Made by a program: the position numbers and the translations under genes | The notes under the pieces: model-generated | Told to the model about the DNA's origin: nothing | The model's database searches: none | Seen by the model: only the letters and a program-made list of their open reading frames with translations | Shown: positions 18,330 through 48,131 of the stretch, piece by piece | Layout of the letters: the number at the start of each line of letters is the position of its first letter | Numbering within the stretch: the stretch's first letter is position 1 | Assembly (NCBI GenBank): GCA_037176845.1 | Contig: JAYKXP010000036.1 | Span: 62,001 to 126,000, forward strand | Length of the DNA stretch: 64,000 nt | DNA from: Paramarasmius palmivorus | Lineage: Eukaryota; Basidiomycota; Agaricomycetes; Agaricales; Marasmiaceae | Direction of reading: 5' to 3'

Positions 18330-18364
18330 AAACCTTGGATTATGGAATGATCTGAGGTTTGACT

Positions 18365-22008: not shown

Positions 22009-22027
22009 TAGACCGGGGCCCATAACC
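22009..22027 (-). other. Primer-binding site, initiator-Met half-tRNA type
   Basis: On the minus strand the bases directly after the 5' LTR read GGTTATGGGCCCCGGTC. This is complementary to the anticodon stem-loop region of eukaryotic initiator tRNA-Met, the internal (half-tRNA) primer site known for Drosophila copia and relatives, rather than to a tRNA 3' end. Confidence 0.7.
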
Positions 22028-24586: not shown

Positions 24587-24590
24587 ATTA

Positions 24591-24616
24591 CGAATTCGAC
24601 ATGAAATGAGAATTCG
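24591..24616. repeat. Left-end hairpin of the insertion
   Basis: CGAATTC (24591-24597) and GAATTCG (24610-24616) form a 7-bp stem with a 12-base loop, five bases inside the left edge. The same CGAATTCG word occurs at 48084-48091 near the right edge. Confidence 0.45.
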
Positions 24617-24720
24617 TTCTTTATCACCGAGTCCCTGCCAAAAAATTCAGACGTTAAGAGGGCCTCCGATGATCCGCCGATCAATAACTCCGAAGTCCGA
24701 TATCTGAAGCGCCCATGGTT

Positions 24721-25102
24721 AAGCGCCTTTATAAATCTGATTACTAAATCATAAATGAAGCGCCCGTTAGTAAGCCAATTACTCAAATGAAACCATATTT
24801 AATTATAGCCCTGATCTGTTGTACATTTGTAGCTTTAACTAACTGCTTATTCTTGATTTTATTCATACCACATTTTATATTGAGAGTATTTTGTTAACAA
24901 AAATAGCTACTAAGCGCCTTTATAAATCTGATTACTAAATCATAAATGAAGCGCCCGTTAGTAAGCCAATTACTCAAATGAAACCATATTTAATTATAGC
25001 CCCGATCTCTTGTACATTTGTAGCTTTAACTAACTGCTCATTCTTGATTTTATTCAAACCACATTTTATATTGAGAGTATTTTGTTAATAAAAATAGCTA
25101 CT
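24721..25102. repeat. 191-bp tandem duplication with AAGCGCC words
   Basis: Two adjacent copies, 24721-24911 and 24912-25102, are AT-rich and nearly identical. Differences include CTGATCTGT versus CCGATCTCT and CATACC versus CAAACC. AAGCGCC occurs at the start of each copy, again 37 bases in (24758, 24949), and once before the array at 24707. The second copy ends 16 bases beyond the stop codon of the F-box gene, so it could also act in that gene's 3' end. Confidence 0.85.
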
Positions 25103-25117
25103 TGATCTTTAGTCTAT

Positions 25118-26812
25118 CTACCATAGGTCCAAGTCTTCGTCCATAATTTCGTCGGAACGACGTTTAATAATGAGAGAGAAATTGCTCTGAAGTCTCTTCC
25201 GCTCTCTTACCACAATGCTCTCCTGACACCATGTCCAGTTCCTTGTGTACAGTATAACTAACTGCAACTCCCTCATAGGAAGGACTCCCCCCCAGCCCCA
25301 ATATAGCTCCTTCATCAAGAAGTCTCCTGCATAGCACACAACATGCAGCTCTCTTAGCCTCTCCAACTCCATAGAACCGATCACCATATGACATTCCTCA
25401 GCGTTGAGGTTTCTCGCATATGTGAGCTTGGTGATCTTGCAATCCCAGAGCTGTAGTCCTCGAAGAACTTCAGATGGGCTAAATGTTGCATCCACAGTGA
25501 GCTCTTGCAGATTCACCATAGTGTAGCGGTCCAACACTCGTAGATTCTGCAGCTTCATCCCCCATCTAAAAGTGATACCTGCTATGCACTTGAGTTTCCT
25601 CAAATTTGAAGCAGATACCTGGCCATCCTCCAACTGTAATGCGCCTATTACAAACACCGCACTATGGAGAGTTGCCATAAACTTGTCCAGTATGGCTTCA
25701 TACCTCTCTTGGTCACCATGAACTTTGACCAGAGCCATGGTCACGTGTTCCAGATTCATCCCGACCCTCAACCAGCTTGCTGTAATCCCTGTTGGTGGAA
25801 GCAGAGGAGCGTATCCATCTATCATCTCCAATCGCTGCAGGTGAGGCATGATACAGCACCTGAATATCGCCCTTTTGATTTCAGGCGTTCCTGCGAGTCG
25901 AAATATCTGGAGCTTGTTGAAAACGATGTGAATGTTGTGGGGTTTGTAGGCGCAGTCGGTGGCTGAGAGAGCTCGGATTTGAAGGTATTTCAAATTGGGA
26001 AGAGAGGAAAGGTGTTCAAGGGCTGAGTTGTCAACAATGATAGTGATGGTGACATGGGTGAGGTTTCTGTTGATGAGTATGGGAAGCTGGTATGCTGGTT
26101 CTCTGTTGGGATAGACTATGTCGGTGGAACCCATGCGTTGGAACGAGTATTGTCTGAGAGACTCGACAGCTAGAGCTTGCTCCCAGAATGCCTGGAAGCG
26201 TTCCTCTGCCCTTAGGCTGCTCACATGCACCTCGATGCTTGTCAAAGCACATTGATCAGGCCACCTCTCTTCTCCAGTAATAAGCGGTAGCATGGGAGGA
26301 AAATGATCACCTTCCCACATATACCCCAGCACCAGTCGGATGTGTTTCCATCGTTTAATGTGGTGAAACAGAATCTGGAGGATGTCATCGATGATGTGCA
26401 TCTTCCAATCATCTGACTCCGATCGGATGATCGTCCAGGACAACTCTCGATCTCCTGAGCGTCTCAGAGCGTGCTTGACCATTTGGATATGCTTCTGCTC
26501 AGGGGCTTCAACATAGATATCCTGCCACAAAGACTTTTCTTCCAATGCCACATCTCTCCAGCGCCTGTTTGTTGCAAGAATTGAGGTGTAAAGAGGTGGA
26601 ACCTGGCCAGCTTCTGCTCGTGACGTGAGCTTGAAAATCTGTACCAGTAATTCTGCTGGCATGTCTGGGATGGGAATAGATTGTAGAGGCTGGGAGCACT
26701 TTAGTTTGTGGTTTCGATTATACAGCGTTCCTCTCACCATTGTGCAAGAATTGCTCGTGTCAACTTGGGGGTTGAAAGAAGGGGGCAAAAAGGGTGAAAG
26801 GACCAAATCCAT
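25118..26812 (-). CDS. F-box protein
   Basis: A single 564-codon frame from the ATG at 26812, with no intron needed. The F-box lies at about residues 47-95 (IPDMPAELLVQIFKL, then a helix ending in NRRWRDVALEEKSLWQDIYV), which in this family binds Skp1 in an SCF ubiquitin ligase. The remaining 450 residues show irregular leucine-rich strands typical of substrate-recognition regions of Agaricomycete F-box proteins (LPNLKYLQIRAL, LQRLEMIDGYAPL, LQELTVDATF). The nucleotide frame is clean and host-like in composition. It sits inside the 23.5-kb insertion next to the left-end repeats, so it may be captured cargo. The substrate cannot be inferred. Confidence 0.8.
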   Translation of the reverse strand: MDLVLSPFLPPSFNPQVDTSNSCTMVRGTLYNRNHKLKCSQPLQSIPIPDMPAELLVQIFKLTSRAEAGQVPPLYTSILATNRRWRDVALEEKSLWQDIYVEAPEQKHIQMVKHALRRSGDRELSWTIIRSESDDWKMHIIDDILQILFHHIKRWKHIRLVLGYMWEGDHFPPMLPLITGEERWPDQCALTSIEVHVSSLRAEERFQAFWEQALAVESLRQYSFQRMGSTDIVYPNREPAYQLPILINRNLTHVTITIIVDNSALEHLSSLPNLKYLQIRALSATDCAYKPHNIHIVFNKLQIFRLAGTPEIKRAIFRCCIMPHLQRLEMIDGYAPLLPPTGITASWLRVGMNLEHVTMALVKVHGDQERYEAILDKFMATLHSAVFVIGALQLEDGQVSASNLRKLKCIAGITFRWGMKLQNLRVLDRYTMVNLQELTVDATFSPSEVLRGLQLWDCKITKLTYARNLNAEECHMVIGSMELERLRELHVVCYAGDFLMKELYWGWGGVLPMRELQLVILYTRNWTWCQESIVVRERKRLQSNFSLIIKRRSDEIMDEDLDLW

Positions 26813-27122: not shown

Positions 27123-29261
27123 CTACGATGACATCAATTGATCTAATCTATGCGGAATAATCGGAGGTCGCCCAAAGACGGTGTAGAAACTCTGACAATA
27201 GAAACGAGCTACTGCATCCTCCAACACAACCAGTTCCTGTTCCTGAAATTGTTCAGGAGCGTCTCGATCTGTGTGCAGAGCTGGATACTGCTCGCTACCA
27301 GGCCATTGTACCAGGACCCCCTTCATTCGCAGGATCCAAGGGGCCCTTGACGCAGTTGTTGCAGCTGCAACCCCTTCCGAACAAAACTGCCAGTAGATTT
27401 CGATGGGCGATTGAGAGGTGTTTTGTGGTGATCGGGCAAAACACTTCTGGACTTGTGCGTGGCATTCCTGCTCGTGATTCCTCGTGTGCGGCTGATACAT
27501 GGAACCCCAAACGTCTTGGTTTTGATTCGTAGACGACGTATCCTGGAGTCGACGTAGAATGATATCGAGCGCATGAAATTCGGATCTAAAGTTGAGCTCG
27601 TATATCTCCCATATGATCTCCTGAAGAATCTGTGGTCTTTTCATATCTCCAATGGGGCGCTTTCGTCCTTGCCATTCGAAGTGATACTTTGTTACGACAC
27701 TAGCATCACTTCTACGACGGATCCCGTAGAATGACAGACATTCTCCCCAACAATCGATCAATAGCGTTCCTTGACTGTTGCATGAACGAACCGGGTTTGG
27801 AGGGGTGAGTGTCATTGACGCCTAGCAACAACCTCCATTGACTGGGTGTCCAGGCGACTGAAGCTAGGCATGCTGGCCGCATCATAACACGAAACTGGAG
27901 AACTTCACGTAGGTCCAGCCATGCGTGCAAATAGCGCTCTCGTTTTTCCTCTGGAGCAGCGACGATCATTCCTGGGTCTGGAAATACGTAGCCAGCGTTG
28001 GGGGTGTCTTGCTTTGGACGTTTTTTTTGGCGGTCGATGGCAGCCAATGCAGTAATCCAGAATTGAGGTACAGGAGGGGAATGCGGTACGATAAGCTCCG
28101 AAAATTTGTCGTGATTCAGTTGTGCGGTGTTAGAGTGCGGTTTTGTATCTATAGAACATGCAATCAGCTTGTTCGACTTGTATAAAGCCGACTTCTACTT
28201 ACATGGTTGGGTCCTACTAGTTTTGGCAGAAGCTGGACGTGCTGGGAGCGAATTGGATTTGAGTTGAGATAAAGAACCTACGAGTATTTGTATTAGTGAC
28301 AATTTTCAGAAAGATATCTAATTTACTTGCCTTTGTCTGACGAAGGTGCGGCATTGGGATCTGGCGCTTCTTGGAAAGAAGCTGCGAATGGATTCCCCGG
28401 TTTCATAATCGATCTGAGATGATTTTCCATCGCAATCGCTCGAGCGACCGTATCACTACCTCCTTCGTAGAGACAACCCGATGCCGATAAAACCTCCTGC
28501 GTGATCCCCAGCATGTCCGGCGTGGTGAATGGGGTTTCCTTGTAGAAGCCTGCGAATGGTTTCTCGCCGTTTGGCTGGACATGCCAGACTGGAACCCCTG
28601 CGTTCCGTAGGTGCTGACGATCTACGTCGTTATACGTGAACGCTCCTACTCGTTCAACGTAGTTTTGTTGCGGGGGTACGACCTTTCCTTCCATTGCTGG
28701 GCGAAATAATTCGACCCAGTCCAAGGCGGCAGTGAGTTCAAGATACCAGCGTTGGAAGCTGCGCAGAAGTTGCTGGGCTACTCGAAGGGGGGCTGTATGG
28801 TGACGAAGGTAACCCAGTACAATGTCCAATTGATAGCTGAGGACTGAGACGACGATGTTGGGGGCTTGGTTCGACAACCTTCTTTGTTCACGGTGTGCGC
28901 CAGCGCGTTTCTGCAGCGCTATATAATCGTCCTTGTAGATCTCTAACGCAGATTCCTTCCACTTCCCAATTCCCGAGACACTTCCATTCCTCTCCTCAAA
29001 ATCCGTCTCTCCGAACATAGCCCACCATCTCCTAATCGCCTTGTTCTGCTGCTTCGGAATCCTGGGGATTACTGCCCAATGACATCGATCGGGAATGTAG
29101 GGCTGTGGATAGAGCAGTGGATCGTCTTGCGCAAAGAGGAAATCGGTGCGTTGATAGACACGTCGAACGCCAAAGAAGGGCTGAGGAATATAAGTTCCAT
29201 TGGTGGTAGTCACCAACCACTTTTCGTCTGCCGTAGACGCAAACAATCTGGTCGAAGACAT
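27123..29261 (-). CDS. Multi-exon gene of unknown function
   Basis: Exon 1 runs from the ATG at 29261 (MSSTRLFASTADEKW) to about 28334. The best continuation uses a GC donor (AAAG|gcaagt) and the acceptor at about 28272, giving SLSQLKSNSL. A second intron (gtaagtagaag...ctatag) leads into an exon reading PQFWITALAAIDRQKK. Within the last exon the frame changes around 27770-27810, from MQQSRNAIDRLLG to GTLLIDCWGECLSFYG, before HALDIILRRLQ and the stop at 27123. A short atypical intron or a real frameshift could explain this. I see no catalytic motif or membrane segment. The protein type looks like a multi-copy Agaricomycete hypothetical. Its promoter faces that of the dioxygenase gene. Confidence 0.55.
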
Positions 29262-29716
29262 GAGGGACGATGGGAATGAGTGGGGGTATGGGATTGGATG
29301 GGGTATGGGACTGAGGGTTATGGGGTAGGGAGTATAAGGATGTAAAATGTGTCAGACGTTCAGTCTTGACACTGGATGGAGTTGTGGAATGAGTGAACGT
29401 TCAGTTCCTCACAAACACTGTAACATTCAGTTCACAGTGGTAGATAGGGTGGGGAACAAAGGGTAAATAAAATAAAATGAAGAAACCGGCGACGAGAGCA
29501 AAGGGGAGCGAGGAGCGTACGAACGAGGAGGTGATAGTGGAGGTGAGAGTGCAAGAGAGATAGGCGCTGAAACGTTGAAGTCCGTTTCAAACTCCGCTCC
29601 GCGGCGAAGTTGGACTTCACACGTGTAGCCACTCTCTCTTCCTTACTCTCACCTGCCTTCTTCTTCTTTCCCTTTCTTCTTCCCCTTCCCTTATTCTTCC
29701 TTATCCCATCTCTCCT

Positions 29717-29810
29717 ATGTACTGCAGACTGAATGTCTCAGTACATCTTTGAGTCTGCAGATTGAATATCTCAGACTATTCCCTCATAGCGTCAGATTGA
29801 ATATCGACGC
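29717..29810. repeat. Hairpin cluster 1 (three stems, constant TGAAT loop)
   Basis: Three hairpins share the plan stem-(x)-GAY-TGAAT-RTC-(x)-stem'. Hairpin 1 is 29717-29746 (ATGTACTG paired with CAGTACAT, inner GAC/GTC). Hairpin 2 is 29752-29777 (AGTCTG with CAGACT, inner GAT/ATC). Hairpin 3 is 29789-29810 (GCGTC with GACGC, inner GAT/ATC). The stems differ in sequence but keep pairing. Confidence 0.75.
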
Positions 29811-30364
29811 TTTTATATATTCCTTTAATTATTTCCTTCAGCGTTCGCTCCCTCTCATCCTCTTCATCTCATCTCAACTATATTCTATTCGGTCAACCCT
29901 CAAGATGATCAGCAAACTGCCTACCTATACAACGCGGTCGTACTTAGCTTGGAAGCCCATCTTGGTCAAGTAAGTACATCGGGTCTTATTCATAGTCATT
30001 CTTTGACCCTTCCTCTAGCTCTATACGTGCTCCATCGAAGCTAGGCGTGTCAGGTTCAAACAGGATTGTAGACGCGTCAATGAGGGGTACCAGGATGCGC
30101 TAGACTGTGCTATACTGTCGGGTTTACTCCCCCTAGGTACGATCTTTCCTTCTTTGTGCCGTACGCGTTAACGCTCTTCCAGTGGCATGAAGAGTCACGA
30201 ACTACGCATAGTCAGGTATACGCACCTTGAAATGTCCTATATCATCCTCAGTTTCGACAGCGTAAGTGTAACTTTACGCCACATCTTACTTTTCTAACGC
30301 GATCTTAGTCCTATCCCGATCGACTTACCTCTCGAAGGTCCGGAACGTCTAAATGCCCGGGATT

Positions 30365-30409
30365 AGTCAGTCGGAGCGCGATCTGGCTCTCATCGCGCTC
30401 CGACTGACT
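30365..30409. repeat. Perfect 18-bp inverted repeat
   Basis: AGTCAGTCGGAGCGCGAT (30365-30382) and ATCGCGCTCCGACTGACT (30392-30409) are exact reverse complements around the 9-base loop CTGGCTCTC, 130 bases upstream of the dioxygenase ATG. It could be an RNA hairpin, a factor-binding site, or the end of an older Helitron-type element. Confidence 0.9.
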
Positions 30410-30538
30410 CAGCTTTCGATGCATTCCTCCAACGGAAGCAAATGTTGGCGGGCCTATGTCTTTCCGCCCGTCTCTACCGCTTTTTTTTAGCCCCTTTGAC
30501 CGCCAACGTTTCTTTCCATCCTCCCTTTTCCTTCAACT

Positions 30539-33500
30539 ATGACCTCTCCAGATCGTCCGCCGCCTATAGTGGACGGGCTACTCTCGGATTTCAAGCATTT
30601 CGCCACTGCCGGCACGACAATCGACTCAACTCACTCGGAATGGATCTATCCCGCTCTCCCTCTTGACTTTCAGATAGGAGTCGAAGAGTATCGACACCCA
30701 GCTGTAGAGAACCGTCCTAAAGGACTTCCCGTTTTCTACAAATGCACCGGTTCACATCCCAAACGAAATCCTATTCTAATCGGAAAGGGCCAAGACTTCG
30801 TCGTCCCTTGGAACTCGCTAAACGTATCGAAGAATGCTGCCTTCGACGAATACTGTAGCAAGCTCAAGAATCCAATGGGTCCAAACGCTGGAATGGACAA
30901 ACATGGTATTTTTTATTTTTTATCGGTTTCCGCAGATTTCTGACGTCGTTTATCCAGGTCTCTTCGAAATGAAGCCTGGGGATATCGTCTGGGGTAGAGA
31001 TTGCGCATCTCCGCATCCCGACCCCAGGAAAGATGTCTGTCTGTTATATGTGGTGCATCCGTAAGTTCGTCCTTCTATCACTTGTATCGTATATCTCAGT
31101 TGTTGCAGAGACGTCTATGGACCTGAAGCGTGGAGCCAATGGGAGGAGAAGTTCAAAGCCCTTCGATCTCGTACTCTGGGTCCTGAAGACGAACGAACGA
31201 GGGACAGAGTGTGGTTTGACCGACAACGCCGTTCATCTCAAGTCGCGGATGGGGCACGATGCTATACGACTTGTCTTAGTTATCAAGTACAGACCAAAGT
31301 AGGCTCGCCGGCAGCTGCTATCAAAGCTCCTCGCGATGATAGTTCGTGGACCGAGGAAGACGAAGAATATGTAAAGCTATGCCACGAGTTGAATCAGGTG
31401 GGTCTATGTTTCATTTAGATGCTCTGATATTAACGTACCTTAGGCTGCTATTGAGTTCGGTCTGAAACACCATCGTGTTTATTGTCCGGAAGAGTACGAG
31501 GTACTCTGTGACAACGCCTCGCTGAACAACGTTCCCGAGATTGGTTCGAAGGGAAATTGTATGTGGACCGGGGGTCAACTCAACTTGGCCAGTGTGAAAC
31601 CAGATTCTTCGAGTACGTACCTTTACCAGCTCTAGCTTCTCTTCTTCATTTTCATTTGAATAGATGCCGCCGCCACCGAAACGGGTATTGGGGACATGAA
31701 GAAGTTTGGCGACATACACGTTGATGGCAAGGATTTCGCGGGTTGCGGCTCTCAGATGATAGCGTTTAGCGACTTGCCATCTGATGTTGAAGGCGGGCGT
31801 ATACACTCTACAGAGTTAGGGGTCTATGTTCGTCTTGACCGACTGGTTTCGACGTACTTCTATGGGTTGAAACGACACGGCTCTTCGCCGCCTATTGGCC
31901 AGAATGATGTACCTCAGAGCTCTTCGCGTTGGGCATTCATTTCCTATCCTCAAGGGTCCATATTACGCGGAGAAGCCGTGCTCAATGTGAGCCCTAATCC
32001 CGATACCGGTATCAATCGTCCGCTCCAGATGACCACGGAAATGATGGATCTACCAGAGACCCCCAAGAAGTATGTGAATCTTTGCGTATATCCTTCAAAT
32101 CACGCTGACTTCTCCCTAAGCACTACTACCCGGAGCTTGCTCTCATCATATCGCCCAGACATTACCTCGTAAGTCCATGTGTTATCTTTGGTATATCAAT
32201 ATTAATTGTTGAACTCAGCCGAGAGCCCGACGGAGTTGGTTCCTCCCATGTCAATTTCCTTCTCGACGCCGGCGCTCTTATGACACCTCATGAACGCTTT
32301 AGTTGGTGCAACAGGGCATTTTATTCGATAGTCACTGCTTCGGGACGTCCTCGAGAACAAGATCTAGGATACTCTGTAGACTATGAGTCGTTTCGACAAG
32401 CTTTCACACAGGATGGACGACATCCAGATGCATGGCCCTTAGCTCCAAACGGTGAGCCCTTCATCGAGCCTTGCATATTTGACGGTAAGTTCTATAGTCG
32501 CCCAATGTTCCTATCTAATTTCCTTGTCGTTATTAGACTGGAAAGCTCTACAACCTCGACAAAGGGCGAAGCTGGCATCATCCTTGTTACAAGCATCGAA
32601 CGCTCGCTTTATACCGGATCAGTACAACGTTTTTCTCGACTTCTTAGATCGCCAAAGACAAGTACATGCTGCGCGTCGTAGCATTTCTTCCGGTATGAGC
32701 CACCGACCCTTATCCCCAACCTTGAATTCACTATGCTATAGAGCCTGTAACCCGTCTATCCGCCAATAAAACGTCGGCGTCCAATCCTTCTCCTAAAAAG
32801 GGGGTTGGTAATCGTGCTACCGGACGTGTTACTCGTTCGTCGAAAAATGCTGGTACTTCATCAAAGAGGGGGCGCAGTTCGACATCTAAAGATACCATGT
32901 TACGAGGGATCACGAACTCCAAGGTATCGTTGGCCAAGTACGCTGTCATCTCATCGCTAAAGGGTAAGCATTACTGCGCATTTTGGGCTCAGAGTTCTCA
33001 CTGTTCCCCTACTTTGTAGTTACCCAAAAGAAATCCCAGTCCTCGATGGTTACTCGACGTGCCAGCCAGCGACTGCTGTCCAGCAAGACATCTCAGGAAC
33101 CTGCACGCCGTATCAAAACTCGCTCACAAACACGAAAGACGACGGTGACAGTTCCTTCTAAAAGAAAGAAGGGCAAAGGTAAAGATCTTCCAGGTGAGCA
33201 TGGTTCGGCCTTTGGTAGGCGAAAGTTGACAGTTTTATTTCTCAGAATCGAATAATAAACGGCTACGCTCCCGTAGGTAGTTGAGTCTTGGTTAAGAATG
33301 TAGCCTGTCTCATCGATAACCTAGATGTAAACAGTTCTACAATGAATCACTACGCAGATCGTGATATAGCCAACCCAGACCTTGAAACGAATGACGCTCG
33401 AGCTACCGTAGATCCCGACGATCATTCAATACCAACTACTCCTTTGTCAGAAGAACGTGAGTAATCTATATCGTCGACTTCTGTTAGTTGTTGAGAGCTG

Positions 33501-35516
33501 TTGCCAGATGACCAGGATTTTGTCGATGAAACTGGGGATAACGAAATGGATTCGGAGGAAAACTGCATCCCTGATAAGAGCTCAGGTGAGGGTTTTGACC
33601 GTCTCTCGAGTTCATATCTAAGGAGTTATTAGATCCCGAGGACATGGTGTTAATCTCAGATCTCTGCGACGTAGACTTTCAAAGCATTTCATCAAGCATC
33701 GCTCCTGTTCCTACGTTTCCAGATTCCAGTGAGTTTACTTTACATTCGTTGGAGCACGTCGCTGATTGCAGTCTTAGATATCCCATTCTTGAAGCTCCTT
33801 GAACCGCATTCCATTGCAGCCTTAACATCCGATATTCAATCATCACTCGCAGCTCTACACCAAGATGGGACATATAAGGACATACAGGAGATAGTACGAT
33901 GCTGCTATCGTCTGAAGCAGCGTAACGCAACTTCAGAAAACGTGGTACATCTCGTCGTCCAAACATGGCCCAAGATGGGCGATATGATGGGACAGGAGTC
34001 CATTATGCGCACCAAGCTTCTACTTTCCAGGCACGCCCTACTCTGTTGTACACAGGTTCTATCGGAATGGATCTCTGAGTGTATTTCTCAGAAGTACAGC
34101 GGTACTACATGGATTTCCCGCTTGCAGCGAGATGTTCGTTCCCTATGTCGCTCACAGACCCAGAGCAGATCCCAGGCTCTTCCCGTCACCATTTCCTCAT
34201 CAGGATACCTCTCCAATATCCCAGCCACAGATGCGACTTACACTCCTCCCAACAACCTACGATCAAACCATGAGGATCGCGTTGTCAAGTCCATTGTGTA
34301 CAGCATTGTAACGCAATGGCTAGGTGTTCCCATCATTACAGCCGTCGTTGGGGATTTCCTCACGATTGTCAAAAATCGTTTAACATCGGCAGCGTTTCTA
34401 CTCGATGCCGTTTGGGCGGTAGCCAAGGATCCATATCTTATCCTTCCAGTCAAACGCGCACGCATCATGAACGGTCGTAGGGTAGAACCATCAGCCCTGA
34501 ACTTGGAAGCTCTTGATAAAGAGCTCTCTGTTCATCCTATTGCTGCTTCTGATTGGGGTCATCGGCGATTAGATGAATTGCAGAGTCTTTTGACATCGTT
34601 GATACTACCGAGTACATCCGAGGCCTTTCCCCAACAAGATGTCGCCATGTCATCCACATCCAACATCCCCATACCTCTCTCAGCTCAGTATGAGAGCTCC
34701 TCTGGCCTGACAACGTCGGGATTGCAAGTTTTTCTTGATTTCATGAGGGCGTCTATATCACTGTTATATCCCAGTAATGGAACGCCACAGCTTCCGAATG
34801 AAGCTCATGCCAGGAGCAGCCTTGATTTCTTTTTACCGGCTCGAGAAAAGGCACCATCTCGTCAACGAATTACCCAACCTTCAGGACCCTTTCATCCCTC
34901 TCGTATTTGCACTATACCGGGATTAGCTTCAGCCATAATGTGGCGGGCAATCTTCTACAACGCTCCAGCAATACATACATTGAACACCCATTCCTTCTAC
35001 TTCCACACGTTCGACGATTGGGATAATCTACACCAACGGCATCCTTCTGAATCATTTTGGTGCAACCCCAGAGCCTATGGAACTGCAACAGCGCGCAGCA
35101 CAGCTCACGCCAAGGCTTATTGGGAAGGAGCGAAAACCTTGCACGACAAATTATTTCGGGAAGAGACAGGTTTTGTGGACTTGGTTAAGTTCATTGCCTC
35201 CTCATCTCTCTTTCCTCAATTGGGCAGACTCACTGCTTACCTTCTTGCTGTTGATTTAGTCTATGCCAACGTCTTGGCATTGCCAGATATACAAGATCTG
35301 GCAAGCTTGGTATCCTGGCTCAATCTCGGATGTGCAAAAACATTGATTAGATTGGGATGTCATAAGGATAAGGTTGCCATGGGCTTTGTGGAGCTGTACA
35401 GGTTCATGACAGGTCCCAACGGGTTAACGCAGCTAGAAATACAAGAGTTGGGATATGATCCCTTTGTTCAGGAACATGGAGGTTGCAAGTATGGACGCTT
35501 TTATCCCGACAAGTAA
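30539..35516 (+). CDS. TET/JBP-like 2-oxoglutarate/Fe(II) dioxygenase with long C-terminal extension
   Basis: At least twelve exons. Those I could place are 30539-30905, 30958-31060, 31109-31397, 31444-31612, 31664-32069, 32121-32168, 32219-32484 and 32537-32692, then several small basic or acidic exons, and the last at 33778-35516. The catalytic core is in exon 5: DIHVDGKDF gives an HxD pair (about 31717-31725), followed by MIAFSDLPSDVEGGR, LGVYVRLDRL, a GLKRHGSSPP histidine and SRWAFISYP with the arginine expected to hold 2-oxoglutarate. This order fits the fungal TET/JBP family that oxidises 5-methylcytosine; expansions of that family in mushrooms are known to travel with DNA transposons. 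The middle is rich in Lys/Arg/Ser (VTRRASQRLLSSK, RIKTRSQTRK), suggesting nuclear targeting and DNA contact. The 580-residue C-terminal exon is unrecognised. Activity is inferred, not shown. Confidence 0.65.
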
Positions 35517-35644
35517 ACACAAGCTTTCAAGTATTCGTTTAGATATGCTAGTACTAAGATGTTTTATTGTCCGTATCCATGCCTTCTTGGCCTTCATCAA
35601 TTATATCTAGATTTCGCTTCAGTTTCAGAGCGGGAGCTTTGATT

Positions 35645-36930: not shown

Positions 36931-37229
36931 TTGTTCCGGTCTATTTTACAGCTTTCAAAATCTCTTTCACTACTACCTTTACAGTTAAGGGAGATTAGAA
37001 AAGTGTAGTTTGGATACAATGATATAGTACATACAGTATTAGTTGTAACCTTTCAGCCAGCCAAAGTTATAGCATAAAGGTTAAACTGGTAGCTTTTAAG
37101 TCGCAGATTGCCCCGAGTTGCATAATGTTATCTAATGATACCTTATCCGATGTTAACGCACCTGAGGTAGGCTTGGCAGCAACTTAAAAGGCTTGAGAAG
37201 GTGATGGGCAACTTCATATCTTTTTCTCC
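36931..37229. promoter_or_regulatory. Shared divergent promoter region of genes A and B
   Basis: About 300 AT-rich bases separate the likely starts of gene A (minus) and gene B (plus). I see no clear TATA box or repeated operator. Confidence 0.4.
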
Positions 37230-40051
37230 ATGCCTCCCAAGTCCACCCGTAAACGTAGGGCTCCATCCCCTGCCAATTCAGAGTATGTGTATATTTCTAT
37301 CATTTAAAGCTCTACTAATAGTCAAGATATAGCTATTCACCTACCAAAAAGATTGCAACTAGCAGTGAATCGCAGTTTTCACCTCCAAGACCTCGGCCTC
37401 GTAGAATGTAAGTCTGTATCTATTATTACTCTATCTGGCTAATAGATAGCAGCGTCAAGCCTAGTGTCAAGAAACAGGAAGAAGAAGAAAAACCTCCAAG
37501 GTACCTAAGCTTCATTCAAACTGTTGCAGCCTTATACTGATTATCATATAGTGACGAAGAAGGGTCTGAACCTATTGAATGGCCGTCGTAAGTATACTTC
37601 TTTCAATTTTATTCTTATACTAATTGCCTCATAGTTCTGATGCAGAAGTGGTTAAGGATGAGCCTGATACAAGAACATTTGATGAAGTTATAGAGTAAGT
37701 ACAACACTTCTTTTATTAAATCCCTGTAGATTGAATATCACAGTGGTATACTTCTGTGGACTGAATGTCCCAGCATTTTCCTTTATAGTCTGATTGAATA
37801 TCAGGACTTATACATTTAATTAATTATTTACTGACCAATTTTCAGTGGAGTGTCAAAGAGCTCTTCTAAGATCAAGCCCAAGATTAACGACTCTAAAGAG
37901 AAAACTCCTGAACCTTCTCAACCCTTGACACCTCAAGCTACACCAAAGGGTAAATCCCCTAAGAAGATGGTAGTTGAAATGTAAGTCATAATTTAAATTA
38001 GCTATACGTTAATTAATATAGATTCTATAGTCCTGTAACACCAAAGAAGAAATCTCCTGTCAAGAAAGATCAAGCTTCTAGTCAGACTCCTAAAGAGTTA
38101 GTTAATACAACGCATTGCAATAATGGTTAAGGCTCATAAATTTTATAGGGTTAAGAAAGTTACAAATGCAATGGCCAAGTTGGTAGCAAAAACCCCTGAA
38201 GTAAAATCAAAGTGAGTAGTATCTTTATTGTTTACAGGTTTCTATTATCTGAAATATATGAAGAAACGTCAAATCAAAGGAGTTTATAGATGTATCTGAT
38301 GAAGATGAAGATATTGTAATGTTAGATCGGTAAGAGGCCTTCCATCCAATACTTCAAATGCTTATCGTATACTAGTAAATCTGCTGCTAAATCAAAAACT
38401 ACAGCCAAGAGCGAGTAAGTATCTGTTAACTGCTTTCAACTTGGCGTTGACCAAATTTCAGTCTTATGGCTCAAAAGCTTAACAAGAAATCGGTTACATC
38501 AAAGAATGCCAGCAAGTCAAAGTATATTCATTTTGTTTTAACTTATACTTCATTTCTAATTAAGTGATAGGAACTATACTCTGTTTGATGAAGAAGCACA
38601 AGAGGATGACATTGTAGAGCAGTCTGATGATGCTGCCTCTGTTCAGGAGGAGGGAGAAGAAATTGGAGATAATGATAGTGTTGCTGAGGAAGCGCAGGAT
38701 GATGAATATGTCAAAGATGGGTTTGTGGTATCTGATGAGGAGGTTGAGCAAGAGGATAGGGATGATGAGGATGAGAATGAGAATAAAGAAAATGAAGAGA
38801 TTCAGCCTATGTGAGTCCTATATATCTTATGTGACACTTTATTAAACCTGGAGTTAGGACATCAACAGAGGTTATGGCATCCAATCCAGCTATTGTTAAC
38901 GGAATCCTGGATGTTGAGTTTCAATCTGAGGAAGAGCAAGAGATCTACAATGAACTTGGCACTAATGTTCTGCCTTCCAAGTAAGTACTTCTACAATCTA
39001 TAGATTGCAGATACTAATTGATCATCAGAGTCTGTGTTATGGTTCCAAATGTAGCTACCAATGGAGAAAGGCCCTACATCTATTATGTAGACTACTCTCA
39101 AGTGAGAAGGAGCTTGCCAAATGATATCGCCAGAGGGTAACTATCCATATTACCCATATATAGAAGTCTAACTAACTATTTATTAGACAACTACGCAAAG
39201 CTCTGGAATTCACTTCCTTTGACTATTACCGAAATTTAGGAAACTGTTCTACAGATCGTTATCATTGGCTTCAAGACATTGCTCATATCAAATCCACCTC
39301 CTTGGGCAGACCAGTTCCAGCAGTCTTCCTTCATACGGGCATAGTTCTCAACTCCCATCTGCAAGATGTCTACAATCCCAATGCTAAATACAGCGATAGC
39401 TTTTGCAAGAAGATCGCCACTAGGCCTTTCCAACAGGCCTATCGATTGGAAGAGGCTGCATTGGGAGAAATGTTGGGTGAAAATGTATTCCATGGATCTA
39501 TCTCTGGTGAAGGTGGTCTGTTGTTTCAGACAAAAAAATTCAAGTGGAATAAAAGTCCTCGTATGTGAGATTCTTTTCAAGCTTTGAGTATCACTTATAG
39601 TCTATATAGCCCGCTTTGGAGGCTCTGCATTTGATCCACCAATGAAAAGTACAAACTCATCTGATAAGGCTCTTACTACAGCCTTTCCTGGATACTTGCT
39701 TTATAATGATGAAGGTTAGTGCAAAGCTTGGTTTAATTTTTTTTACTTACATATTTTACAGTACCAATTTATGATGGCCGATCAGATCCAAAGAAGAGCC
39801 AATCTGGATTTGTTGCTAGAGCTGGCAAATTCCTTACTTTAAACAAACTACCCAAGTTAACTAAAGAGGTAGAGACCGATTCTTTGGTTACTGTTGGATA
39901 TACCGTATCCCGTTTCGCTAAAATCACTAGCACATCTTCTTTCTCCAATGGAACTACCTATCCTTCAGTATTTTTTAATATTTTATTTGTCATTCTTTTA
40001 GCCAATCCTCCCAGAGCACAAACTTCTGGGTCTTCTAAAACTAGGAAGTAG
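37230..40051 (+). CDS. Gene B of a divergent pair, charged nuclear-type protein with many micro-exons
   Basis: Starts MPPKSTRKRRAPSPANS at 37230 and stops at TAG 40049-40051. About fifteen to twenty small exons are separated by 40-60-nt introns; the first eight introns I placed are all in phase 2. The N-terminal half is basic and Ser/Pro-rich (KSPKKMVVEIPVTPKKKSP). A strongly acidic segment follows around 38580-38810 (QEDDIVEQSDDA, EVEQEDRDDEDENENKENEE). The C-terminal 330 residues look globular: PYIYYVDYSQVRRSLPND, FTSFDYYRNLGNCSTDRYHW, AYRLEEAALGEMLGE, LVTVGYTVSRFAK. The hairpin cluster at 37724-37808 lies in its fifth intron. Function unknown; DNA or chromatin binding is plausible from charge alone. 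Confidence 0.65.
37724..37808. repeat. Hairpin cluster 2 (three stems, constant TGAAT loop), intronic
   Basis: Hairpin 4 is 37724-37743 (CTGT with ACAG, inner GAT/ATC). Hairpin 5 is 37754-37773 (CTG with CAG, inner GAC/GTC). Hairpin 6 is 37787-37808 (AGTCT with AGGACT, one bulged G, inner GAT/ATC). The cluster aligns with cluster 1 at 29717-29810, including the T/A-rich tail after the third hairpin, but the stems have different sequences. Confidence 0.75.
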
Positions 40052-40331
40052 AATTTCTCAGTTTAAATTTTTCATATATTTTGTTTTATATCCTGCTCTA
40101 TTCAACTAGCCCTTATATCTAGGTTTAGAACTTTCAACAAGTATCTTTGTATTCAACTATATCGCCTAGTTATACAATTAATGTTTGCTCAACCAAATCA
40201 ATTGTCGCAGAGTCACATGATTCTCAAAATGGTGGCTTGTAAATAAAGTTTAAGTTTTACAACGGCAAACTCCGTAAATTTATATAAGGTTCACAAATCA
40301 AAACACGGGTTTCTTCTGCACTTCCATTATC
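40052..40331 (+). promoter_or_regulatory. Promoter region of the Rep-helicase gene
   Basis: 280 AT-rich bases between gene B and the ATG at 40332. TATATAAGG at 40281-40289 is a good TATA box about 43-50 bases before the start codon. Confidence 0.45.
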
Positions 40332-43300
40332 ATGGGCAAGCTTTTACTCTGCACTTTGCTACTACCACTGTTTTTCATAGTATCCACTTACACCAATCAA
40401 CTAAAGCGACCTCCAGCTTGTAAGTTTAATATTTTTCAAAGTTTACTTTTCTTATTGACTGACATATAGTAGATTTGAACTCAAGTCTCTTGAGTAAAAC
40501 CAATGACATTTCACAGTATATATACTGTGAAGGCTCACTAGAGCTATTTGATAATCAATTTATAAATCTCCAGCATCATAGTTGTTGTGATATTCAATCT
40601 CAATCTTTAACTACTATCCAAAGTAGTAACAATGTTTATTCTACACTATCTCCATTGAATAACTATGATGCTAAGGTTAAGCTTCTCATAAAGAGTAAAA
40701 ATATGGGATATTATCTTGTAAAGAGCGGTTTTGATTTAAGCAATCGTCTGGTAATTAAAATTTCACGTCTATTACTCAACAGTATGGCAAAGATTATAGA
40801 TATAGTCAATCAATCTATACTCTGGTATTCAGATCTTCAACAAAATATTGAATTCCAAGTCAGATTATGTAGCATTAAAGCTTGTCAAGGATTTACCCGT
40901 AAAGCTGACTGGAAAGTCATGTATTTGAAAGTAGCAATTAAATACCAAAGATTAAAATTGAAGTCTATTTATGAATATATTTATGGCTATATATCTCTAC
41001 AAAGCACTAGATCATTTAGCAGGCAACAAAAAGGTAAATTAGTTAATTGCTCTATCTCACGTCTACAGCCACATCAAGAAACCAATACTGTTCATCAACC
41101 TAGAAAGCTTCATCAATCTCCTGTTGGCGGTCATGCTAGTCCTAATATTCCATTTGAAGCATTTAAAGAATTTATTGTTCATACACCTTTAGAATATAAT
41201 ATAGAAGAAAGTGTGAAGTATCAGTATAAGTTTCAAAGTTATATACCTTTTGACACTGACGTTTTAACTTCACCTTGTTCTAATGGGACTTTGATAGCTA
41301 AGATACCTGTATTACATATGACTACATTTATAAAAACAGTCACACATATGCGTGAAATAGCAAAACTACATGGAATGGCTAAGCGTAGAGCAACAATAGA
41401 TAATATTAAAGAATATTTAGCTTTACATAACTGTGAAGAATCATCTTGTCCAGCATATATATCATTGTTCTCTTATACTCTAGAGCGACAAAGAAAATAT
41501 TATGAGAAGTGTAAAGAGATAAATGATACTTTAGATTCTAATATACCGTTTCCTCCTTTACCATTGGATACTCAAACTGCTGATACTATTATAAAGAAAG
41601 CATGTGGGCGTATGTCATTGGATAGTATTGAAGAAGCAGGCTGTGGTGTATGCGGCCTTTTAACTCCTAAAAAATATCTATCTCGATTAAGTGCTATGAA
41701 GAGACACTTTTCCTTATTACAAAGTGATGCAGTAACAAGATTAGAGCGCACTTGTAGTTCAGACCCTATTTGTGAAATTCAAGGGCCTGTTATAGAGGAA
41801 GACTGTAAACTGATATGTGATAGTTGTCGTAGCTCTCTGAGATCAAATAAAATACCGCAAATGGCTTTAAGTAAAGGGCTGTGGTTAGGTAAAGTGCCCA
41901 AGGAACTTAGTGATCTAAGGTACATGGAAAGACTTCTAATAGCCAAAGTACGAGGCTCTTGCTGTTTTGTCAAGTTATCAACTGGAAGAAGAAAGATGAA
42001 AGCAAATATCATTACATTTGAATCGCCTACCGCAAAGGTTTATCAAAAACTACCTCCTCCACGAGAAGACTTGGATGAGGTACTAGCTATATTATTTACT
42101 GGTCCAACTGAGCCAACTATTAGAGATTTCCGAAGAACACCTTTCTTGATCAGACGTAATAATGTTAAACGAGCACTTCAATGGTTGATCCTCAATCATC
42201 CAAGCTATGCAGATGTAGATATATCTGAGGAGAATCTAGCATCTTATGATGAAAATTCTCCGCCTTGTTCTGTGCAATATAAAAAGTCTGAGAGCAATAA
42301 AACATCAGAGTCATTAGCAGTGCATGATATGGAAGAAGAAGATGGAATATGCGAAGGTGAATGTGCATTCTCTGTACATGGATTAACAGGACAAAATCTT
42401 GATGATCTTACTGTTGATAAGCTTAAAGGAAGGGCTTTAGAGCATTTGGATCAAGGTAATAAAGTATTAGCAGTGGGACATGGAGATGTACCATTGTCTT
42501 TATGGAATAATCCAACTTTGTATACTGAAATGTTTCCATGGCTATTTCCATATGGATTAGGAGGGATTGGTACTAGTTTTCTTTCACATGCTTCACACAT
42601 TAAATATTTATTAATGTATCATGATAAAAGATTTCAAAGAGATATACACTTTCCCTTTGTGGCTTTTAGCTTGACACAGATGAATAACTCCCGCACAGGA
42701 GCATGGCTCTTGACTAATAAGAAAATATTTCCTAGAGTAGCAGATAGAATCTTGAATTTGAATCAGGATGTTTTAAAATCTCTAGCATCACGTTTAGCTA
42801 AAGGTGAACATATAACATCTAAAACACCAGCTGAAGAGGAGTGTTATAAAGTAATTAAAGATCTTGATCATGTTGCAAGCCATGTTCAAGGTTCTACAAC
42901 TTCTAAGAAATATATGCGAAATGAGATCTGGTCATTAATTGCTCATCAAGGTGCCCCGTCATGGTATATTACACTATCACCTGCAGATGAGAGACATCCA
43001 ATTTGCTTATATTGGGCTGGTTCTGAAGAACCATTTAGACCGGAAATACCCATAAAAGATGATGATCGGATGCGAAGAATATGCAGCAATCCTGTAGCAG
43101 CAGCAAGATTTTTTCACTTCATGGTTACTACTTTTGTTGAAGATGTTTTAGGAGCTAAAGGTGGACATCGTGGTCTCTTTGGTGATCATGCTGCTCACTA
43201 TGGTACTGTTGAACAGCAGGGCAGACTTACGCTACACTTACATTTGTTGCTTTGGATTAAGAATGCTGTAAATCCCCAAGAAATGAGAGATAAAATTTTA

Positions 43301-46300
43301 GATCCTAATTCTGAATGGCTTCAAAAAATAGTACAATATTTGGAAAGTGTACACTGTGGAGAATATCTAACAGGTAGTCATGAAGAAGTTAAAACTAAAA
43401 TTGCTATAGACTCTAAATCACCAGACTATAGAAATCCTGTGGAAACCCTTCCTGTAATATCACCTAAATTCTGTGTTAAACATAAGAGCAATTCAAATCA
43501 AGACTGTAGAACTTGTCTGGAATATAACAACTGGCTTGATTCTTATAAATATACTGTTGATGATCTCCTTTTAAAGTCCAATGTTCATGATTGTGATAGA
43601 AACATTAGGAAGGATGGGGAGGTTAAGTTAAATCATTTATATAAGGGCTGTAAAGATAATAAATGGGGAACATGCAAAGCAAGATTTCCCCGGACTCTAT
43701 ACAAAACAACACAAGTAGATCCAGTTACTGGAGGGATATATTTAAAGAAGGGAGAGCCTATGTTAAATACATTTAGTCCTCCAATGACTTATCTTTTTAG
43801 ATGTAATACAGACGTCACAAATCTATCATCAGGTACTGCAATTAAAGCGGTTGTACTATATGTATCAGATTATATTACTAAATCATCTTTGAAAACTCAT
43901 GTAATCTTTGATTCTATTAGGAATATATTTGCAAAGAACACAGAGCTAATTCAGGGAGATTTAAAAGCAGCGCAAAAGGGAAGGAGTTTGATGCAAAAAA
44001 TTGTAAATCTGTTAACAACAAAGATGGAAATTGGAGCACCCATGATTTGCATGTATCTTTTAGGTAATCCTGATCACTATACTGACCATGTATTTAAACC
44101 ATGCTACTGGCAATCATATATCACAGAAGCAAGACAGTACTGGCATAAGGATGATAAATTGGAACCTACTCAAAAGATTACTATCTTAAAACAAAGAGGG
44201 AAGCTTACTAGCTATTCTCCAGTTGATGATTATATTTATAGACCTATTGAATTGGAAGACATGTGTTTATATGACTTTATTAGATTAACAGAAAGGGTCT
44301 CCAAAAATGTAGCTCAAAAAAGAAAGACTCCAAGTAAAAATGATACTTACAATGAAGAATCTGATGGTCCCAATGATGATATTATATTGAATGAGCTTAG
44401 AGAAGAGGAAGATACTGGATATCTTAGTGAACATGAATATGACCAGGAACATACTGCTATCAAAGATAGCACAAACTTAAAAGCTAACTATCATTGGTTT
44501 ACAGAAGGACATCCCTTTATATCAAGCCACGTTCTAAAAGTTAATAGTGATGACCCTAAGATTGTTGTTAATTTTGTAGGTGCTACTTTACCTAGAAGAG
44601 ATGCAGGTGACAGAGATTATTATTGTTCATCTATGTTAGCATTATTCAAGCCTTGGCGTTCAGGAAAGTGCCTGAAAATTGATCAGCAGAGCTGGCCTGA
44701 GGCCTTTGAAGGTTATACATTTACTAAAAGAGACATTAAGCTAATGGAAAACTTTAATATAAGATATGAATGTTTAGATGCTCGTGATGATTATAGAGCT
44801 CAATTAAAGGCTGGAAACAATGTAATGAAGGATTTTGCAATTGATAGACAGTGGCTAGAAGAAGGTATTGATGAGCATGAAAATGAGGTAGATAACCTGG
44901 AAAATAATCCAGATGGAACTGGAGACGAAGATTTAGACTGCATTATTGCTGAAAATGATATTGTTCCGACAGACAATTACATCAGGAAAATGCAAAGAGC
45001 TGAACAAGTCAGACAACTATTAGAAGATTTAGGCTGGCATATACCTGTTAAAAAGAAATCTGTTGAACCAATTCCAAGTGATAGAGGTATTGATACTGAG
45101 ATATCAAACAGCCGGTGGAAGCAGACAGTATTGCAAGCAAAACAAGATTATATCAATGAAAAGATGAATCAATCAGGTCAGGATAAGGTAATATCAAAGA
45201 CAGGAGCAACTGATATTGTGAAAGTAGTTGATAAGAGATATCTAGAACGAGCATTGCATGAACCAGGTGAACATCAAGATTTTATTCAACTATGCAGAGA
45301 AAAATTTTCATTGAATGAAGAACAAGACAGAGCATTTAGTATTATAGCAAATCATGCAGCTAGTAAACTGTCAGGTCAATTAAAGATGTATATTGGTGGA
45401 ATGGGGGGAACTGGAAAATCTCAGGTATTAAAAGCTCTCAAGCATTTCTTTGAGTTAAGAAAGGAAGCTTACAGAATTATTATTGTAGCACCTACTGGTA
45501 AAGCAGCTGCACTGCTAGGTGGCTCCACATATCACTCTGTTCTAAGCTTGACTGAAAACACTAGTCTCAAGACCCTACCCCAAGTACGAGAACGATTAAG
45601 AGGTGTTGATTATATGTTTATTGATGAAATATCAATGGTATCATGTTGGGAATTCTATGAAATCAGCAAAAGGCTTTGCCAAGCTAGGACGGCACCTCAT
45701 ACAGAATTTGGGGGAATGAACATGATATTTGCTGGTGATTTTGCACAGCTTCCTCCTGTAATGGGAGGTGGAAAATATGCTTTATATAGTGAGGATGTTG
45801 GACTAACAATGAATGCACATGCATCAAAGAAAATACAAGAAGCAACTATAGGCAAAGCATTATGGCAAACAATAACAACAGTAGTTATCTTGCGTCAGAA
45901 TATGAGACTCAGTATATCTACAAATGAGGATAAAAAGCTTAGAACTGCTTTAGAGAACATGAGATATAAAGCATGTACACAAAATGATATTGCTTTTCTA
46001 AATACTAAGGTAGCAGCAAAACGCAGAGGATTAGGAAGGCCCTCTATATGCCATAAATCTTTTCGCAATGTCTCCATTATAACAGGATTAAATGCTCATA
46101 AAGATAAAATCAATAAAATAGGATCAGAACGATTTGCACTAGAAAATAATCGGAAGTTAACTCACTTCTACTCAGATGATGTATTGAAACCGCTAACTGA
46201 CAATGCTAAAAGTAAAAGAAAGAAAAAGCTGCATGCTGCAACAGTAATGTCGGATGAATTACAAAAGGTAATTTGGAATTGTCCTGATAGTGCATCTGAT

Positions 46301-48076
46301 GAGCATCTATCTGGAAAGCTATCTTTATGTTTTGGAATGCCTGTAATCTTACGATCTAATACTGCCACTGAAATATGTATCACTAAAGGACAGGAAGCTA
46401 CAGTCTATGACTGGAAAGCAGGAAGGGGCTCACGTGGCCAATTAACTTTGCATACACTATTTGTAAAATTGACTGATCCTCCTCATGATATACAAATACC
46501 TGGACTGCCAGATAATGTTATTCCACTAGTTCCTAACACATCTACACTATTCATAACATTACCAAATGATGAAGAAGTTCATGTATCAAGAACCCAGATT
46601 GAGATTTTACCATGTTTTGCAATGACTGACTATGCTTCACAGGGGACAACAAGAAGATATAATGTTGTAGATTTAATGTATTGTAGAAGCTTTCATGCTT
46701 ACTATACTGCACTGTCTCGTAGTGCATCTGCTGCAGGAACACTTATTTTAAGAAGCTTTCACCCTCATAAGATTACTGGTGGTGCACCACGATCATTAAA
46801 GCGAGAATATAGAGAACTAGAAATCCTTGATGATATAACTAGACTAAGATATATTGGAGAGATGGATAAAAGTGTACATGGTGCATCTCGTATTGAAGTA
46901 ATTAAAGCCTTTCGTAAATGGAAAGGAGAACAGTACAAACCACCATTTATGCCCAAAATACTACAATGGAACTCTTCAGATCCTTATCAAGAACTAGATG
47001 TTGATAGAATTGAGGAATGGCATATTGTAAACTATAAGAAGCCTGAGTCTACAAAAGAGAGAACTCTAACACAATCTGTGATCCAACAAAGATTAAAGCC
47101 TGTAGAAAGTAGTGTTCCAGTTCAATTCCTTTCAGATTCACAACAGACCTTAGTTAATGATGAGACCCCATTAAAAAGAAAGAGGCTTGATGATGCTAAT
47201 AGTGAGGATGATGATGATAGACTAGTCAAACGCTCTTGTATTGACTCTATTTCATCAAGAGCATTTAATAATCGAATGGGACCTATATGGAGTAATAACA
47301 GCTGTGCTTATGATACTGTAGTATCAATTCTATACACTATCTGGGCCTCTGATCCTGATAGATGGGATAGTTATATGAACTCTACACAATCTGACATTCT
47401 AACAGAATTATCACAAGAGTTTGAAAAGGTTAGAACTGGACACACTACTTTGGAACAGGCCCGAGATAGCATGAGGGCAACTTTAGATGCATGTTATCCT
47501 CTTCGGAGATTACGATGGGGTGAATATGCTTCAGTGCCTGTAGTATTAGATGCTTTACTAAGCTCTGATACTAGAAACTATATTGAAAATACAGTAACAT
47601 GTCCAAATAATCATACATGTAATAATGCTGTTCAACAATGTAAATCACCTGTACTAGAGATGGTTGGAGCCACAGAGTATGGATCTATATCAGAATGGCT
47701 ATTAAACGGTTCTATTGAATTGGCTCAGAAATGTAGCAATTGTAACACAAATCTAAGATCATTTCACTGCTTCATTAAGCCTCCAGAACTATTTACTTGC
47801 CATTTCACATTGCCTAGAACACAGCATAATACGTTTTACATTGATAAAACTGTATATGTAGAAAACATACAATATGAACTGAGAGGAGTTATATACTTTG
47901 GTAATGAACATTATGTTGCCAGAATTATTGAATCAGATGGATCAGTATTTGGGCATGATGGTATGGGTGAGATGGGATCACAACTTTTATATAGTGGTAA
48001 TTTAAATAGAACTAATCTAAACTTAATGAAGTTCAAGGATAAGAAAGCATATGGGGCAGTATATGTTAAATCTTGA
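40332..48076 (+). CDS. Helitron-type Rep-helicase with hydrophobic N-terminal exon and USP-like C-terminal domain
   Basis: Exon 1 (40332-40419, MGKLLLCTLLLPLFFIVSTY...) is joined by a 50-nt intron in frame to a 7.6-kb exon (40470-48076), for about 2,564 residues. Domain order: hydrophobic leader 4-19; unknown region to about 415; a Cys-rich segment of the DUF6570 type (CGVCG at 421-425, then CDSCRSSL); Rep nuclease with HUH pair (LHLHLLLW, His 952 and 954) and tyrosines in YVSDY (1160, 1164); PIF1-family SF1 helicase with Walker A GGMGGTGKS (1672-1680), DEIS (about 1748), GDFAQLPP, LRQNMR and ALSRS; then a 300-residue C-terminal domain with NNSCAYDT (Cys 2308) and FGNEHYVARI (His 2510), plus two Cys clusters, resembling the ubiquitin-specific protease Cys and His boxes. 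Rolling-circle transposition is the family role. The frame is uninterrupted, so the element may be functional. Confidence 0.88.
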
Positions 48077-48098
48077 TTTCTTTCGAATTCGTGCCTGA

Positions 48099-48116
48099 CT
48101 GCACCCTTGGGTGCAG
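48099..48116 (+). repeat. 3'-end hairpin of the insertion
   Basis: CTGCACCC and GGGTGCAG form a perfect 8-bp stem around TT, 15 bases before the right edge of the insertion and just after the Rep-helicase stop codon. Helitrons end with such a hairpin followed by a short tail; here the tail ends CCCAAG rather than CTAG. Confidence 0.75.
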
Positions 48117-48131
48117 GCTTGAATTCCCAAG

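Follow-up and report, generated by a model that had tools for sequence, protein, structure and literature searches.

A probable Helitron of 23.5 kb with Helitron2-like termini and a set of accessory genes in Paramarasmius palmivorus

Background

Very large Helitrons exist in plants and animals. In the fungal Helitrons compared here, sizes are about 1.5-13.7 kb and extra genes are few, according to the available parts of the original accounts (PMC5148889, PMC4289320), as opposed to the 21-24 kb class described in the following. The latter is represented by a 23.5-kb insertion in the agaricomycete Paramarasmius palmivorus, located in a stretch of 64,000 nucleotides (contig JAYKXP010000036.1, assembly GCA_037176845.1, positions 62,001 to 126,000; referred to as the window). 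Judged from sequence comparison, the insertion is best explained as one large Helitron-superfamily element that is probably autonomous and has Helitron2-like termini (probability about 0.85). It encodes a Rep-helicase protein (RepHel) and predicted further genes, termed F-box gene, A, B/C, D and E. Contigs of the draft genome assembly (393 contigs) are designated by C-numbers, the window being part of C36.

Like the present element, the Helitron2-like FoHeli elements of Fusarium oxysporum have terminal inverted repeats in asymmetric arrangement and hairpins close to the ends, and they insert without a target duplication; FoHeli3 contains, in addition, a single gene of unknown domain that lies upstream of the transposase gene and is oriented against it, which is the geometry of gene D. 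FoHelis differ in size (about 5-11 kb) and terminal sequences, and the accessible part of their description contains neither an accessory gene set nor hairpin-array promoters (PMC5148889). HELPO1 and HELPO2 of Pleurotus ostreatus are Agaricomycete Helitrons likewise combining Helitron_like_N and PIF1 domains; one to four extra genes in HELPO1 and the CTTG end of HELPO2 are further likenesses. As far as the corresponding excerpt extends, they differ in length (1.5-13.7 kb), a RepHel of about 1400 amino acids (aa), TC/TG...CTRR-type ends, AT insertion and the position of the extra genes, which lie downstream of RepHel and are mostly species-specific (PMC4289320). Helentrons also possess palindromic sub-terminal repeats, a 3' stem-loop, T-rich boundaries and a deubiquitinase-type RepHel domain, with OTU, RPA or tegument-type protease domains reported in the available portions of two studies; their C-terminal AP endonuclease sets them apart, the USP/USPL1-like protease fold belonging to the element described here (PMC4067079, PMC9741609). 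Fungal transposons carrying TET/JBP genes, including Helitron2 of Agaricus, are partly covered by PMC12730594, according to which the accessory gene is thought to counter silencing; in contrast to these elements, gene B resembles TET/JBP enzymes by eye only (H-V/L-D, RHGSSPP). No element like the present one was described in the titles and abstract openings of the literature surveyed, which does not show that it is unpublished.

Insertion site and termini

The element occupies positions 24588-48131 of the window (plus strand; 23,544 bp) and interrupts copy F of a tandem gene array. In blastn comparisons of the flanks with the window, similarity of copy F to its sisters runs to 24588 and resumes from 48132, and in sisters E, G and C the two halves of copy F abut at a single base (13867, 53855 and 8785, respectively). 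The empty sites (slash, junction) read GGGGGAT/GGCCC in E, GGGGGAT/GGCGC in G, GGGGGAT/GGCTC in C and GGGGAAT/GGCTC in B, the filled site in copy F being GGGGAA/TTACGAATTCG...CCCAAG/TGGCCC. A further empty paralogous site is present on C181, where the left-flank match stops and the right-flank match begins at 68776. Sister alignments and junctions thus delimit the insert to 24588-48131, with one T that cannot be assigned to either edge. The insertion into a single array member, proposed in the first-pass annotation together with an alignment of the sister copies over the junction, is thereby confirmed from the empty sites of B, C, E and G; the right edge given there (48131) was correct, the left one (24587) was placed one base early. 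Likewise borne out is the absence of a target duplication, of which the sister empty sites leave at most the single T. The insertion splits a Met codon in what is, read from the sequence, an open frame of the sisters (Y-G-W-G-M-A-H-G), so that the suggested location in exon 2 is plausible, but not proved. Copy F is left with a left part of the interrupted exon (24017-24587, plus strand; frame start approximate) and a right part with the next open frame (48132-49580, plus strand).

The element starts with TTACGAATTCGACATG and ends with CCCAAG, followed by T. Its 5' terminal 94 bp (24588-24681, plus strand) are common to the family and contain a hairpin (ACGAATTC...GAATTCGT, 24590-24617), with only modest folding of the 5' end as DNA (z -1.90, 11 of 200 shuffles equally good). 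An inverted copy of the 5' ACGAATTCGA (24590-24599) can be read at 48083-48092 (plus strand), 39 bases inside the 3' end, forming an asymmetric terminal inverted repeat. The 3' hairpin CTGCACCC-TT-GGGTGCAG (48099-48116, plus strand) is positioned 15 bases before the element end, and none of 200 shuffles folded as well as this end (z -3.89). Among five distinct 3' ends, three of the eight stem pairs are altered on both sides and all 39 of 39 cells are paired; slid alignments pair to 23-49%, and the covariation was reached by 3 of 500 shuffles.

The 38-nt left terminus and the 50-nt right terminus are each present once in the window, the next-best matches having 15 (left) and 20 mismatches (right; the opposite strand of the right end itself), and no internal terminus was found within the element by searching the window with these two ends. 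Elsewhere in the genome, both termini occur paired and in the same orientation at 11 other fetched places with lengths of 4.6-21.5 kb (C47, C112, C178 and C23 with two each, C19, C1, C183, C243 and C167). These represent 10 distinct sites, since C112 and one of the C23 places (C23a) have a common right flank. In a copy on C199, the contig border cuts into the left end. Recurrence of the termini as pairs and their single occurrence in the window argue for one unit. The earlier proposal of one large Helitron-like unit therefore stands, also in view of a relative on C47 with both ends and the same gene order (see below): the suggested genome search for copies sharing both ends yielded the 11 places, and looking for copies with ends falling elsewhere did not refute the unit. 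The base preceding the left end is G in 12, A in 4 and T in 2 of 18 left-end rows, and the base following the right end is T in 11 of 11 rows and in C47. The target is thus purine/T rather than strictly A/T. The left end on C80 reads TTATGAATTTG...GAATTTG versus TTACGAATTCG...GAATTCG in the others, and these C-to-T changes at CpG are what methylation decay would be expected to produce.

RepHel protein and classification

RepHel is encoded by an open frame at 40463-48076 (plus strand), the true start of which is uncertain; similarity to C47 begins near 41336. The protein matches DUF6570, Helitron_like_N (3e-35) and PIF1 (9e-25) in Pfam, with weak generic helicase matches in NCBIfam, and displays HUH (HLHLL), two-tyrosine (YVSDYITK) and Walker/helicase motifs (GGMGGTGKS, FIDEIS). 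Homologues number 466 at E 0.001, with 42-50% identity among the 120 matches listed. The AlphaFold2 model of the last 282 residues (predicted local distance difference test, pLDDT, 84.4; predicted template modelling score, pTM, 0.83; 23-row alignment) retrieved USP enzymes and USPL1 as top Foldseek matches in the PDB (E 1e-10 to 2e-9), at template modelling (TM) scores of only about 0.4-0.6 and root-mean-square deviations of 6-11. In this domain, the Cys is invariant in the 23 rows and the His and Asp nearly so, and homologue P0033 has a Peptidase_C98 match just below the cut-off (25.3 of 27 bits). This confident model suggests a USP/USPL1-like fold and a putative cysteine protease as C-terminal domain (47297-48073, plus strand). 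A Pfam search for a C-terminal AP endonuclease on RepHel gave no match.

Affiliation with the Helitron superfamily is indicated by Rep and helicase in one protein, lack of a target duplication and the sub-terminal 3' hairpin. In place of the TC...CTRR ends and A/T insertion of canonical Helitrons (Helitron1), the element has TT...CAAG and purine/T; the first-pass assignment as Helitron-like accordingly holds at the level of the superfamily. With Helitron2, the element shares an asymmetric terminal inverted repeat and a hairpin at each end (modest at the 5' end). Its flanks deviate from the target listed for Helitron2 in the available part of PMC5148889 (TTTT on one side, T or C on the other), and where Helentrons have an AP endonuclease, its C-terminus models as USP-like. 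We place the element in the Helitron superfamily, with ends resembling those of Helitron2; it appears to be new in size, constrained accessory genes and promoter arrays. During transposition, RepHel would nick at the 5' TT end, and its helicase would then peel off one strand; transfer would stop at the 3' hairpin and CAAG, and the peeled strand would join at a purine/T site.

Conserved gene order and protein-level constraint

A diverged relative with both termini is located at C47:35923-57410 (21.5 kb). Its DNA matches to the element have identities of 65-76%, rising to 95% in the 38-bp left end. By tblastx, A, B, C, D, E and RepHel are found in the same order and on the same strands, with segments of 29-81% identity. 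Considering only collinear matches on the expected strand, synonymous sites are saturated (proportion of synonymous differences, pS, 0.72-0.83) at overall nonsynonymous proportions (pN) of 0.16-0.38, i.e., A 0.28, B 0.22, C 0.29, D 0.28, E 0.38 and 0.16, 0.16 and 0.34 for parts of RepHel. Thus, A, B/C, D, E and RepHel are under protein-level constraint. Both elements also show the same step in G+C content (GC), from 0.48-0.50 in A and B/C to 0.36 in RepHel.

The order D-E-RepHel recurs in other Helitrons of the P. palmivorus genome. Matches were merged by hand to places, resulting in 55 for gene D (from 78 matches), 21 for gene E (from 33) and 28 for RepHel (from 76 DNA matches), plus the RepHel place of the window. 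Each place was given one position, 39 of 130 candidates were scored for the RepHel list, and copies with the RepHel 3' part alone were excluded, the one exception being C2, which was entered as a miss; all counts refer to the matches listed. A gene-D relative is positioned antisense and upstream of RepHel, within at most 30 kb, at 21 of the 29 RepHel places (spacing 5.2-26.3 kb; chance expectation 0.35 places); the other three geometries occur as one pair each. The long spacings suggest other long Helitrons, unless insertions lie between D and RepHel. Divergent D accompanies 19 of the 21 gene-E places, and at eight of the 21 the succession D, E, RepHel is present. With 3'-only copies excluded, the four nearest places in terms of RepHel are C102, C47, C270 and C246, and the same four rank highest in D and in E.

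Hairpin arrays

Triple hairpin arrays precede gene A (29349-29439, minus strand, the sense strand of A) and B/C (29717-29811, plus strand, sense strand), with TTTTATATAT directly after the latter (29811-29820). A third, weaker one lies inside the predicted 5' part of gene E (37719-37806, plus strand). None of 200 shuffles folded as well as the B/C array DNA (z -5.64), as compared to 5 of 200 for the E array (z -2.23), which is under the cut of the strict scan and shows one hairpin only in a looser one. The hairpins have the apex RAY-TGAAY-RTY with a near-constant TGAAN loop, and their arms vary, yet pair. A strict scan of the window for loops starting with TGA returned exactly six hairpins, those of the A and B/C arrays (20 block shuffles: mean 1.45, range 0-4). 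When arms were swapped among 12 hairpins (nine from the window, three from C47, the C47 gene-A hairpins being left out), the observed pairing sum was reached by 1 of 20,000 permutations (mean 3.6 for own and 1.4 for swapped arms), even though one swapped pair (8.5) exceeds every own pair; hairpins whose apical stem has four pairs are scored too low (B1, B2 and A2 score 1).

An array model (R2), built from four arrays with a hand-set structure, is paired in 83.8% of the cells of its own alignment (helix 3, 71%), its covariation being reached by 10 of 500 shuffles. Beyond its four arrays, R2 detected in 154.5 kb only the gene-A array of the window, which was not in the training set (E 0.011), and, weakly (E 0.62), one preceding gene A in C47. 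The B/C-side loops of C47 are TGATG, TGATG and TGATT. In 68.3 Mb of genome sequence, the motif pair has 16 matches versus none for the control: the element itself accounts for six, C102 for two, the neighbourhood of gene A in C72 and in C263 for three each, and C270 and C28 for one each. Fourteen of the 16 are associated with the gene set of the element; the outlying ones are at C28:568064-568101 and C270:25481-25527, the latter about 1.6 kb beyond a RepHel match. A stricter form of the motif has six matches in the genome, exclusively in this element and C102.

Because the hairpin-array sites are common to them, we think that A, B/C and, more weakly, E form a co-regulated accessory set serving the element rather than chance passengers. 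The position of TTTTATATAT directly after the B/C array and a similar box following the gene-A array of C47 favour promoters over leader RNA. Speaking against such a set, the scans detected no hairpin array upstream of D or RepHel and no triple hairpin in gene E of C47. Some plasmids and phages use single-strand hairpin promoters. One may speculate that the element is a self-contained multi-gene replicon, its accessory genes constituting a regulon of hairpin promoters with interchangeable arms immediately before a TATA-like box. As pairing is maintained in spite of variable arms, these sites might work as single strands, A, B/C and E being switched on from the peeled-off transposition strand; this is doubtful at present. 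The arrays provide a direct handle on the control of the accessory genes, and together with the constrained gene set, the fixed D geometry and the near-private promoter signature they make it testable whether Helitrons carry their own accessory machinery.

Mosaic structure and alternative explanations

The element is a mosaic of an AT-rich core (D-E-RepHel), an A-B/C block of host-like GC and a gained F-box gene. Some of the comparisons with other copies weigh against a single mobile unit. No second full-length near-identical copy was detected in the P. palmivorus genome, so that the case for recent mobility of the entire 23.5 kb is built on its ends and the copies of 4.6-6 kb. The closest copy, C102, is 97% identical over 35554-45184 and is cut by the contig end; no left end was detected in the 30 kb fetched, the end of C is missing and neither A nor B was detected next to it. 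An A-B/C block is also present at C72 and C263, with no clear D, E or RepHel in the 7.5 kb beyond C at C72. Without a RepHel match, A-B/C at these places may be a hitch-hiking block. Gene A is nearer to C72/C263 (65-66%) than to C47 (52-59%), whereas for B and C the C47 sequences are closer than those of C72. The contigs C72 and C263 seem to be nearly duplicate, but the gene-B coding match is separated from the gene-A array by 0.6 kb in C72 versus 26 kb in C263, and another large insertion seems to be present at C263:9233-35363.

As an alternative, the element could be a composite, in which the part at 24.6-35.5 kb was host DNA acquired by capture, or else a non-autonomous Helitron, and the part at 35.5-48.1 kb a RepHel element in its own right, the two having been brought together in this copy by nested insertion or recombination. 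Such an origin would agree with the GC step between B/C (0.479) and RepHel (0.357), the occurrence of A-B/C without detected RepHel and the step in synonymous divergence (dS) from C102, which drops from 0.92 in C and 0.27 in D to 0.017 in E and 0.019 in Rep. Moreover, chimeric copies show that joins of this kind occur in the element's family: six copies of 4.6-4.7 kb consist of 2.66 kb in common with a 6.2-kb non-autonomous copy (about 95%) and the last 1.96 kb of RepHel, and in a seventh copy of 6.0 kb the join is identical, but a further insertion is present. However, the window contains no internal termini, and C47, bounded by the same termini, agrees in gene order, strands and GC step at saturated synonymous sites, from which it follows that the join of A-B/C to RepHel is old. 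A composite is therefore improbable; exchange inside the element after joining of its parts is real. That the extra genes are chance passengers without a role for the element is unlikely too, albeit less so. The F-box gene is absent from C47, relatives of gene A are numerous (61 genome matches) and also found among Marasmius and Moniliophthora proteins, and function searches on A-E gave none. On the other hand, A, B/C, D and E are constrained relative to C47, D and RepHel have a fixed geometry (21 of 29 places among the matches listed) and hairpin arrays are shared; the constraint could predate two independent captures, but the same order would then be needed twice. An assembly artefact joining unrelated sequence into the gene, conceivable in a 393-contig draft with apparent duplicate contigs (C72/C263; C112/C23), is next to negligible in view of base-exact junctions at family termini which also flank elements at unrelated sites.

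Accessory genes and further features

Gene models are conservation-guided predictions leaning on C47. The six genes counted inside the insertion in the first-pass annotation are recovered if B and C are regarded as one gene (F-box gene, A, B/C, D, E and RepHel, all as predicted models). The F-box/LRR-like gene (25118-26812, minus strand; open over 565 codons) matches F-box-like in Pfam with 27.9 bits (cut-off 24.3) and LRR_14 with 27.4 bits (under the cut-off of 40), has no match in NCBIfam and no counterpart in the C47 relative. Related pieces are present on C80 (92%, adjoining a left end) and C169 (79%). Gene A (27123-29261, minus strand) corresponds to the annotated protein VNI00_009573 (660 aa; the 640-aa model has 97% identity), and its predicted fold (pLDDT 63.7) is too poor for structure search.

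The gene or genes B/C (30539-35516, plus strand) have no Pfam match; a further 5' exon from ATG 29905, read by eye, is possible. Gene B yielded no homologue at E 0.001 among 7,498 candidates, longer fused annotated proteins being outside the length limits. Its likeness to TET/JBP dioxygenases was suggested by eye; with PDB matches at chance level only, this assignment is no more than a guess. Core partner gene D (35716-36728, minus strand) had a best E of 0.67 against the PDB. Core gene E (37250-40051, plus strand), with an acidic part and many introns, has an uncertain start; ATG 37250 was read by eye, and the predicted model begins at 38506. As a low-confidence guess, genes A-E might function in strand handling or escape from silencing. 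A tRNA search gave none, an Rfam search up to E 1 no match, and 40 pattern matches in viral contigs no relative among them.

Just inside the left end, a 191-bp tandem duplication (24720-25101, plus strand) is 97% alike. Relatives (84-87%) of a 61-bp inverted-repeat sequence (30360-30420) are found at C179, C199 and C284; C179 and C199 also carry ends of the element's family. Outside the element, a Copia-type retroelement with gag and Pol_BBD matches on the minus strand lies between array copies (18003-22346), flanked by 319-bp end repeats (18003-18321 and 22028-22346) that are 99.7% alike.

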